From the NCBI GenBank assembly GCA_030153215.1, contig JASKKA010000007.1, positions 1 to 64,000 on the forward strand: a DNA stretch of 64,000 nucleotides, read 5' to 3'. The number at the start of each line of letters is the position of its first letter. Positions within the stretch are counted from its first letter, which is position 1. The notes beneath the pieces are model-generated. The model had not been told where the DNA came from. It did no database searches and worked only from the letters and a program-made list of their open reading frames with translations. Source of the stretch: Trichococcus sp. GTDB taxonomy: Bacteria > Bacillota > Bacilli > Lactobacillales > Aerococcaceae. Shown piece after piece: positions 1,570-40,443 of this stretch. The position numbers and the translations under genes are program-made.

Positions 1570-1740
1570 ATTTCTTGTAAAAACAAAAAACTCTATGTCA
1601 CCTAGACATAGAGGATCCATAAATATCTCATTGGATTCTTCCTCGGCAGGTATATTAAGGCTCGCACCCCCTGCTGTCTTCGGTAAGCATATATTAACCT
1701 CAACGACTATACCAAAGATAGTCGCTGAGGTCAAGGTTTT
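1570..1740 (-). promoter_or_regulatory. Ribosomal protein L10 leader (rplJL mRNA leader) with attenuator-like terminator
   Basis: About 170-nt leader between rplA and rplJ; minus-strand hairpins CCTCAGCGACTAT...ATAGTCGTTGAGG and CTCTATGTC-taggt-GACATAGAG followed by TTTTTTGTTTTT. Confidence 0.65.
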
Positions 1741-1741
1741 T

Positions 1742-2431
1742 TTATAAAGAGCTTGCGTCCACTTTAACGCCAGGTCCAAATGTAGTTGTTACACTTACAT
1801 TTTTAACGTATTGGCCTTTAGCAGTTGCTGGTTTAGCTTTCAAGATTACATCGTGGATTGTACGGAAGTTTTCCATCAATTTAGCATCGTCGAATGATAC
1901 TTTACCGATAGGAACGTGGATGTTACCAGCTTTGTCAGCACGGTATGTAACTTTACCAGCTTTGATTTCGTCAATAGCTTTTGTTACGTCCATTGTTACA
2001 GTACCTGTTTTAGGGTTTGGCATCAAGCCTTTAGGTCCCAATACACGACCCAAACGTCCAACTTCACCCATCATGTCAGGAGTTGCAACGACAACATCAA
2101 ATTCAAACCATCCGCCTTGGATTTTTTGAACCATATCTGCGTCGCCTACGTAGTCTGCCCCAGCAGCTTCCGCTTCTTTAGCTTTTTCGCCTTTAGCGAA
2201 CACTAAAACGCGTTGTGTTTTACCAGTTCCGTTTGGAAGCACGACTGCTCCACGGATTTGTTGGTCATTTTTACGAGTGTCGATTCCTAAACGGTAAGCG
2301 ACCTCAACAGTTGCGTCGAATTTTGCAAAATCGACTTCTTTCGCTAATGCTACTGCTTCTTCTACTGAATATGCTTTAGTAGAATCTACTTTTTTCGCAG
2401 CATCTTGGAATTTTTTACTTTTCTTAGCCAT
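1742..2431 (-). CDS. rplA: 50S ribosomal protein L1
   Basis: [32 protein letters not shown]...[25 protein letters not shown]. Confidence 0.97.
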
Positions 2432-2477
2432 TGAATTTTCCTCCTAGATTGTGGTTTTAACGGATTAACCTCCCACG

Positions 2478-2516
2478 TGTGGCCTGGAACACCTTTTGAG
2501 CGTTCGGAAGGCCACA
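2478..2516 (-). promoter_or_regulatory. Intercistronic hairpin between rplK and rplA
   Basis: TGTGGCCT/AGGCCACA 8-bp inverted repeat between rplK and rplA; function unassigned. Confidence 0.4.
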
Positions 2517-2535
2517 TGAGAAGCTGCCTTTTGAA

Positions 2536-2961
2536 TTAGTCTTGAACTGTAATACCCATTGAACGGGCAGTACCTTCGACCATACGCATAGCAGCTTCTA
2601 CGTCTGCTGCATTCAAGTCTACCATTTTTGTTTCAGCGATTTCTTTAACTTGGTCACGTGTTACGGTACCAACTTTTTTCTTGTTTGGTTCGCCTGAACC
2701 TGATTCGATACCTGCAGCTTTTTTCAGCAATACTGGAGCTGGAGGAGTTTTAGTAATGAAGGTGAATGAACGATCTTCATATACAGAAATGACGACGGGA
2801 ATGATCATACCTGCTTGGTCAGCAGTACGTGCATTGAATTCTTTACAGAATCCCATGATATTTACTTGTGCTTGACCCAAAGCTGGACCTACCGGTGGAG
2901 CAGGAGATGCTTTACCTGCAGGAATTTGTAACTTAACTAATTTAACAACTTTTTTAGCCAC
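2536..2961 (-). CDS. rplK: 50S ribosomal protein L11
   Basis: [46 protein letters not shown]. Confidence 0.97.
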
Positions 2962-3210
2962 GAGACATACCTCCTTGATTGTTCGTGATGTGGTTTAATG
3001 GGGTTAAGATTTCCCCTCCCACTCAATCCATACGCCTGAACGTACCGATATATTATATCAGTAAAATAGTCCTTCCTCTTAAAGCGATGGCTAGCTTCAC
3101 GGGTTAGCCCTTCGGAAATTAGATAAATCGTACCTATTGCGCTCTACGATGCTCAGTCGGCACGATTTCCTAAATTTCTTTCAGGGCTGGATGAACCCGT
3201 TCCGCTTTTA

Positions 3211-3768
3211 CTATCCTTTGTCGACTTGGTTGTAATCTAGTTCGGCAATCGTTTCGCGGCCGAACATTTCGATCATGACTTTCAACTTGCCTTTTTCGCT
3301 GTCCACTTCTTCAACGAATCCTGACAGACCGTTGAATGCGCCATCGGTGATGGTGACGGGCTCGCCTTTTTCAAAGTTCACATCATGCGTACGCGTGCTC
3401 ATACCCATACGCTTCAGGATGACTTCGATTTCTTCATTCAATAACGCAGACGGCTTGCTGCCCGCTCCGTGCGATCCAACGAAACCGGTAACGCCCGGCG
3501 TGTTACGGACTACGAACCACGCTTCATCAGACATAATCATTTCAACCAACACATAACCAGGGAAGGTTTTTTGCGTAGTCGCCTTCTCTTTTCCGTCCTT
3601 CACTTCCACTTGCTCTTCTTCTGGGATAACAACGCGGAAGATATGGTCTTCCATGTTCATGCTTTGCGCACGTGATTCGATGTTCAGTTTCACTTTGTTC
3701 TCATAGCCTGAATAAGTGTGCAACACATACCATTGTTTTTCGTTTTCGATCGTTTCCATTTTTCGCAT
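3211..3768 (-). CDS. nusG: Transcription termination/antitermination protein NusG
   Basis: ENEKQWYVLHTYSGYENKVKLNIESRAQSMNM...FPGYVLVEMIMSDEAWFVVRNTPGVTGFVG plus KOW; start approximate. Confidence 0.95.
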   Translation of the reverse strand: MRKMETIENEKQWYVLHTYSGYENKVKLNIESRAQSMNMEDHIFRVVIPEEEQVEVKDGKEKATTQKTFPGYVLVEMIMSDEAWFVVRNTPGVTGFVGSHGAGSKPSALLNEEIEVILKRMGMSTRTHDVNFEKGEPVTITDGAFNGLSGFVEEVDSEKGKLKVMIEMFGRETIAELDYNQVDKG

Positions 3769-13586: not shown

Positions 13587-14129
13587 TTAGTCTTGCTCTT
13601 TCCGATAAACCAACGAAGCCTCATACCAAGCTTTCGTTAATTTGCTTTTTGCGGCCTCCTCCGACTGGAACTGACGGATTGTCGCGACGTGCTCCAGCAA
13701 ATAGTTCGCCGCCACCCCGACAGCGACCCCCGAGAAGATACCGGTTATGGATAGGATCGGCAAGTAGAGCATGACGCTGAACGATTACGCGATCAGACTC
13801 GCCATCGCCAACTGCCCGACATTGTGCAGAATCCCACCGGTCGCACTGATGCCGATCACGCTGACTCGCTTCGGACCCAAAAGCCGGACCAAAAGCATCC
13901 CACCATAACTCAAAAAAGCCCCCGCAAAACTGTACAGGAAGGTAGATAATGTCCCACCCAACAACGTTGAGATCAACAACCGCATCCACACGACCTTTAA
14001 ACTATCTTTGTACGGCAACGTAAAGATCGCCAACAAGGTGATGATGTTCGCCAACCCCAGCTTCGCACCCGGCGCAAACGCGAACGGAAACGGAATCGCC
14101 CGCTCCAGCAGCGTGATCACCACTGCAGA
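13587..14129 (-). pseudogene. Gx transporter / HepS component I-like membrane protein, EetB-like (internal stop, 5' end missing)
   Basis: VITLLERAIPFPFAFAPGAKLGLANIITLLAIFTLPYKDSLKVVWMRLLISTLLGG...QLAMASLIA-TAA-SFSVMLYLPILSITGIFSGVAVGVAANYLLEHV, all in one frame. Confidence 0.85.
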
Positions 14130-14190
14130 CCTGTTTTTTGGGAAAAGAAAAAAACGGGAATACCTCGCAAAGAGACAGACCCGTTTTTCC

Positions 14191-14425
14191 TCTCCTCCGG
14201 CGAACGGAAGCTTCGCCGGATTTCGCCCAACATTTCATCTTCGTTCTCCGATTAGGCTCGGCTTCGCAGGAGTAGCGGCTGAAAGTTACCGCTGTCCTCC
14301 GACGAGCGACCGTTAACCGGAGCTATGTATTAATCCCATTGCTCTCCTCCGGTTAGCGGCCCGACCTTTTCTTCGCTCCGCTGCTGCTTCCACGAAGAAA
14401 AGGCCGTCTCCAAAGTGAGACGGCC
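14191..14425. repeat. Intergenic hairpin-array element, family A copy 1
   Basis: ctcctccggcgaacggaagcttcgccgga...ctccgattaggctcggcttcgcaggag...ctccgacgagcgaccgttaaccggag, ending in GGCCGTCTC-caaagt-GAGACGGCC. Confidence 0.75.
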
Positions 14426-26835: not shown

Positions 26836-27050
26836 TCTCCTCCGTCGAACGGAGGCTTCGCCGGAGTTTGGCCCATATTTTGCTTGTCTACTCCGATGAC
26901 GCCAGCTTCGCAGGAGTTGATGCTTATGATTACCGACGAACTCCGGTGTACGGCCTCTTCTCCGGAGTTGAGGAAGGATTTCGGGACCGCTATTGTAAAC
27001 TCAATTCCAAATAAAGAGGTCGTCTCGAAAACGAGACGACCTCTTTATTT
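26836..27050. repeat. Intergenic hairpin-array element, family A copy 2
   Basis: ctcctccgtcgaacggaggcttcgccggag...ctccgatgacgccagcttcgcaggag...ctccggtgtacggcctcttctccggag, ending in AAATAAAGAGGTCGTCTCG-aaaa-CGAGACGACCTCTTTATTT. Confidence 0.8.
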
Positions 27051-27071
27051 GTGTTCTTTATGTGCGAGACT

Positions 27072-40207: not shown

Positions 40208-40440
40208 CGTCCTTCTCCGGCGAACGGAGGCTTCGCCGGAGTTCAGGACGCATTCCGATTTGTGTTCTCCGATGAGCACGGCTTCGTCGGAGCTGAGCCC
40301 GATTGTTACCGGTGTGCTCCGGTGAGCGGAGGCTTCGCCGGAGTTGGGGACGGATTACTGGATTACACGCACTGCTCCGATCCACGCACGCAAAATAAGA
40401 GAGGGGACGTCTCGTAATGAGATGGCCCCTCTCTTATTTT
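40208..40440. repeat. Intergenic hairpin-array element, family A copy 3
   Basis: ctccggcgaacggaggcttcgccggag...ctccgatgagcacggcttcgtcggag...ctccggtgagcggaggcttcgccggag, ending in CAAAATAAGAGAGGGGacGTCTC-gtaat-GAGATggCCCCTCTCTTATTTT. Confidence 0.85.
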
Positions 40441-40443
40441 GCT

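Follow-up and report, generated by a model that had tools for sequence, protein, structure and literature searches.

A high-copy hairpin repeat with a pitch of about 50 bp in the intergenic regions of Trichococcus

The window, a stretch of 64,000 nucleotides, is part of a 51%-complete Trichococcus genome bin. Among the compared genomes its nearest relative was T. ilyis (~91% identity in one 6-kb region). Three copies of an intergenic hairpin repeat, family A, were recognized at 14195, 26840 and 40215, all on the + strand, with the hairpin unit and the common orientation that had been described in the original prediction. The pattern of the first hairpin (hairpin A), with up to three mismatches, gave four matches in the window, compared with 0.00 expected by chance. 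The parts of the three copies and the adjoining hairpins were:

14195..14221, + strand: copy 1, hairpin A (CTCCGGCGAACGGAAGCTTCGCCGGAT), read in the sequence and with the hairpin-A pattern
14246..14272, + strand: copy 1, hairpin B, from sequence and copy alignment
14297..14322, + strand: copy 1, hairpin C, from sequence and copy alignment
14347..14359, + strand: copy 1, half-hairpin D (CTCCGGTTAGCGG), from sequence and D consensus
26840..26866, + strand: copy 2, hairpin A, from sequence and hairpin-A pattern
26891..26916, + strand: copy 2, hairpin B, from sequence and copy alignment
26941..26967, + strand: copy 2, hairpin C, from sequence and copy alignment (D not recognizable in this copy)
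40215..40241, + strand: copy 3, hairpin A, identical to the consensus, from sequence and hairpin-A pattern
40267..40292, + strand: copy 3, hairpin B, from sequence and copy alignment
40317..40343, + strand: copy 3, hairpin C, from sequence and hairpin-A pattern
40375..40388, + strand: copy 3, half-hairpin D, degenerate, from sequence
27008..27051, no strand: terminator-like hairpin adjoining copy 2, with a 20-bp perfect stem and a GTCTC/GAGAC core, probably outside the element
40390..40442, no strand: terminator-like hairpin adjoining copy 3, a GTCTC/GAGAC terminator also present in eight element-free species

Copies 2 and 3 were located between convergent genes, as predicted: a DUF4440/YacP-like pair and a glyoxalase/melibiase pair, respectively. 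Copy 1 lay directly 3' of a sigma-like gene (Sigma70_r2 match) and adjoined a heptaprenyl-diphosphate-synthase component I gene with a shortened start, consistent with the proposed position between a sigma factor and a broken eetB. At 14072-14200 this synthase gene was without the start found in relatives. Elsewhere in the window, positions 3088-3209 matched, with 91% identity, a portion of a different ~180-bp repeat that occurs in several genomes (locus L089 and other loci).

A family A element consisted of hairpins A, B and C, usually followed by half-hairpin D, with a total length of ~165-180 bp. In an alignment of 124 copies the stems of hairpins A, B and C had 9-10 bp, and the consensus was CTCCGGcGAACGGAGGCTTCGCCGGAG-TTCgGcc.aCATT-CTCCGATGAgg.cgGCTTCgtCGGAG-...gTTACCGgtGT-CTCCGGtGaGcgg..ccTCaCCGGAG-...-CTCcgg.cagc.g. 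The units started at regular distances, 51 bp from A to B (45/64), 50 bp from B to C (54/61) and mostly 50-53 bp from C to D, and the looser spacing of 45-65 bp given originally was not retained. Between copies of the same genome, homology usually started no more than 10 nt from hairpin A and stopped near D.

By BLAST, family A was found in all 13 Trichococcus genomes searched, with 12-33 copies above threshold per genome, and outside the genus there was a single weak match. With a covariance model of 54 copies, the counts are lower bounds because scoring was limited to 150 candidates per genome; the model gave at least 126-149 matches each in 10 of the 11 near-complete Trichococcus genomes, at least 83 in the eleventh (T. 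palustris), and at least 87 and at least 48 in two incomplete genomes. The genome-wide scan suggested in the original prediction thus yielded far more than three copies per genome, in agreement with a dispersed element family and not with random terminators.

In the collections searched, family A was restricted to Trichococcus. The hairpin-A pattern, run over 85,000 species genomes, matched only Trichococcus and one Sedimentibacter contig, and had no match in viral contigs. A looser A-to-B pattern matched 13 of 77 family genomes, all 13 of them Trichococcus, and none of the 64 others. The occurrence in Sedimentibacter was rejected: its family A loci were ~90-97% identical to Trichococcus over kilobases. 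These two loci (L089 and L100, on MUZD01000006.1, labelled Sedimentibacter sp. SX930) appear to be Trichococcus DNA, and the contig is likely a mixed assembly. In a genome from another family of the same order, a weak partial match (L029, 1483-1585) comprised two family A-like hairpins adjoining a glycosidase-like coding stretch, possibly a transfer from Trichococcus. Our literature search retrieved no description of these repeats in Trichococcus, and a genome paper on the genus mentions no repeats except CRISPR; family A is apparently previously undescribed.

The presence of copies at orthologous sites differed between species. At site 40208 the window species carried a copy, as did T. ilyis and T. 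patagoniensis; the site was empty in eight species, in which the stop codon was directly followed by a GTCTC/GAGAC-type terminator. Site ~37190 was filled in nine species and empty in T. collinsii, with no detectable copy in the window. Further presence/absence differences were found at other sites. The cleanest difference in a close pair, between K1Tr and T. alkaliphilus at 608688, looks like a contraction between units. At the site of one T. patagoniensis family A copy, the K1Tr genome carried a different hairpin array beside a similar terminator (G003:C21 151393-151789).

The empty site 40208 bears on the GTCTC..GAGAC hairpin, which had been regarded as a conserved, defining end of the element. 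The hairpin at copy 2 indeed has a perfect stem, of 20 bp instead of the 19 bp reported. The presence of a GTCTC/GAGAC hairpin at site 40208 in eight species without the element contradicts a role as element end, although such hairpins are enriched beside copies. A hairpin of the form [GA][TC]CTC..GAG[AG][CT] was found 3' of 26 of 106 copies and 5' of 11, so most copies elsewhere are without a terminal one. In convergent gaps it occurred in 16/34 with the element versus 16/146 without (Fisher p ~7e-6). Since it also stands at the empty site, this hairpin is probably a host terminator type flanking the element, or else its frequent partner.

Whole family A units were also duplicated in tandem, at 179-199 bp. 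Large arrays were found in T. patagoniensis (L246 5951-11938, period 199) and T. palustris (L247 3513-8957, period 188-192), and in both species an M29 peptidase gene adjoined one of them. The genes flanking the largest arrays were metabolic, regulatory, or matched no family of known function. Paralogous copies in T. patagoniensis were up to 95% identical, although the species itself is ~10-14% divergent from most others, and more so from T. palustris. The copy tree was star-like with few supported forks, suggesting that most copies are old.

Overall, family A is likely mobile; the filled and empty sites speak for this, the star-like tree and the contraction-like difference against it. The exact insertion junction was sought twice in comparisons of filled with empty sites and none was recovered; within this limit, no target-site duplication was seen at the sites compared. 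A MITE of some DDE insertion sequence would likewise be small, non-coding, multicopy and variable between species. The ends of family A, CTCCGGCGAACGG and CTCCGGTCAGCGG, are direct repeats and not the terminal inverted repeats of a MITE. This, and the missing sign of a target duplication at the sites compared, speak against such an origin, which appears highly improbable.

Copies were found preferentially at gene 3' ends. For 98 copies, the context was convergent in 66, tandem in 30 and divergent in 2, compared with 130 convergent, 438 tandem and 146 divergent background gaps; the gene calls were home-made, and since many of the copies had been retrieved via hairpin A, decayed copies are not randomly represented. 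At tandem sites there was no orientation preference relative to the neighboring genes (12 same, 18 opposite). A terminator-like hairpin was near the A side in 14/80 copies and near the D side in 32/82, and we rejected a general rule that an intrinsic terminator precedes the copies.

The 3'-end location, with the D side often near terminator-like hairpins, would suit an RNA device, in which transcribed hairpins stabilize mRNA 3' ends or serve as a clustered terminator. The predicted RNA fold was strong (z -3.2), and stem mismatches were more often G:T than A:C (226 versus 147), an excess driven by few polymorphic columns. The lack of orientation preference argues against this explanation. So does the covariation analysis: 92.5% of the stem cells were paired, but the compensatory changes that the original prediction had looked to were missing, with a covariation score of 0.091 versus 0.089 after shuffling (hairpin A could vary little here, most copies having been retrieved with its pattern). 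The hairpins are shared by descent. An Rfam scan at gathering threshold recognized no family at the copies, and only an L10 leader elsewhere. We regard an RNA device as decidedly unlikely.

The rate of change differed between comparisons. At site 37190 the element diverged by 0.06-0.30 versus 0.15-0.44 at fourfold sites of the same species pairs (pairs with a usable gene alignment, which excludes those of T. pasteurii), a slower change that may reflect constraint, conversion or exchange there. Mismatched stems persisted in its orthologous copies. For the pooled sites shared by K1Tr and T. alkaliphilus, divergence was 0.123 in the element versus 0.156 in element-free convergent gaps, which is close to neutral. 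A modest constraint on family A is possible.

With respect to a mobilizer, Y1 transposases were detected in 12 of the 13 Trichococcus genomes. High-copy extragenic palindromes at gene 3' ends could, accordingly, be REPs or REPINs mobilized by a Y1 transposase of the genus, of the RAYT or IS200/IS605 type. The search for a RAYT proposed in the original prediction found none above the cut-off of NF047646 (0/13 genomes). In T. ilyis, at 98% completeness, no Y1 transposase was matched, although the family A model had at least 145 matches there. In 15 IS200/IS605 loci that were checked the CTCCG hairpin was absent, and the ends of IS200/IS605 elements inspected (left ends and one right end) were unlike those of family A. 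Mobilization by RAYT or IS200/IS605 is largely refuted by these results and appears very unlikely. No autonomous partner emerged either: 79 of 86 hairpin-A matches carried CTCCG at the expected hairpin-B position, and the remaining seven were mostly diverged fuller copies. In T. patagoniensis, an insertion-sequence-like insert was seen inside the terminator beside a family A copy (L107, ~1700-3300).

Family A resembles BOX, REP and STAR repeats in placement and persistence, and the REP/RAYT and STAR definitions do not apply to it. With BOX of Streptococcus pneumoniae (PMC3049150) it shares a composite structure of short repeats with predicted stem-loops, a high copy number, intergenic location, over-representation between convergent genes and a variable number of modules; this likeness is one of architecture, taken from the published description and not from sequence comparison. 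In BOX, boxA and boxC enclose a varying set of tandem boxB modules, and there are terminal inverted repeats similar to ISSpn2 (PMC3049150). In family A, from another genus, the ordered hairpins A-B-C-D follow one another at 50-51 bp, and it is the whole ~180-bp unit that is duplicated. REP, BIME and REPIN sequences (PMC3733652, PMC3116915) are, like family A, multicopy extragenic palindromes downstream of genes, with a convergent/unidirectional bias and several families per genome. Unlike in REPs and REPINs, the hairpins of family A all have one orientation and do not form inverted doublets, and the GTAG/CGTC tag of REPs was absent beside hairpins A-C in the 54-copy alignment and the 124-copy consensus. 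The REP/BIME-like mobile element of the original prediction therefore holds as an analogy in placement, and fails on the tag and the RAYT. The STAR repeats of Staphylococcus (PMC3532100) form GC-rich intergenic arrays that expand and contract, as those of family A probably do, but are direct repeats of 14-bp motifs with 40-44-bp spacers; their consensus T(G/A/T)TGTTG(G/T)GGCCC(C/A) had no exact match in 252 loci.

We consider it reasonably probable that family A is a genus-specific, non-coding and non-autonomous BOX/REP-like repeat of ~165-180 bp with a pitch of ~50.5 bp, seeded and then slowly decaying. Its nature would be selfish or nearly neutral. Copies may be seeded at 3' intergenic sites by some enzyme or recombination pathway, which would probably recognize the hairpins when the DNA is single-stranded. 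The arrays could then expand and contract by local slippage or unequal crossing-over between units, and copies would slowly decay where tolerated. The placement at 3' ends may be due to selection removing insertions near promoters. For BOX a mobilizer has been proposed and is unproven (PMC3049150); Gram-positive short interspersed repeats such as BOX and STAR are without a proven one. Trichococcus has complete genomes, cultured type strains and presence/absence sites, making the question of dispersal directly testable.

The pitch of family A recurred in other hairpin arrays. Tandem Repeats Finder, applied to ~1.8 Mb of contig sequence, detected 14 intergenic arrays with a period of 24-65, all with a period of 50, 51 or 52; several of the stem families among them showed no obvious relation in sequence. 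The largest other family, TTGTCSGAT..ATCSGACAA, was present in 11/13 Trichococcus genomes and 0/48 others, with up to ~12 units per array. In the loci examined its step was 52 bp in 40/40 cases, and its variable stem pair was either C-G or G-C, 24 of each, and never mismatched; a few mismatched units occurred in the genome listing, and units within an array are not independent. The arrays located were:

G003:C21 137298, 145178, 358999, 491083 and 502875; L248 2045-2650; L249 1474-1929: TTGTCSGAT..ATCSGACAA arrays
G003:C21 369152-369288 and 151537-151664; G012:C26 74314-74481 and 115008-115134; G005:C18 43243-43354: arrays with other stems, periods 51-52

A pitch that is fixed and common to sequence-distinct arrays could point toward a DNA element useful to the host. 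With ~51 bp, or about five helical turns, cruciforms or protein sites would all face the same side of the helix. Between convergent genes they might act, for instance, as a supercoil sink or as a nucleoid/gyrase site, a role proposed for BIME-2 of E. coli. The convergent bias without orientation bias and the slow change at the one orthologous site 37190 are in line with this. The same placement is, however, expected of selfish elements, as argued for BOX (PMC3049150), mismatched stems persist among the 37190 orthologues, and presence varies between species. We therefore regard a host function as unlikely and prefer the selfish or nearly neutral repeat. More tentatively, family A and the other arrays might form a superfamily on a 50-52-bp pitch, made, spread or maintained by one mechanism that measures ~51 bp. 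The sharing of the pitch by sequence-distinct families makes the question of a helix constraint directly testable. Apart from these arrays, the intergenic ones detected comprised a pair with periods of 22-23 bp, family A itself (179), a CRISPR (66, 132) and a tRNA cluster (173). A CRISPR array was located at G003:C21 556572-560770, with the repeat GTTTTATTTTAGCCGATTTTGTAAGGAAACTATAGC.
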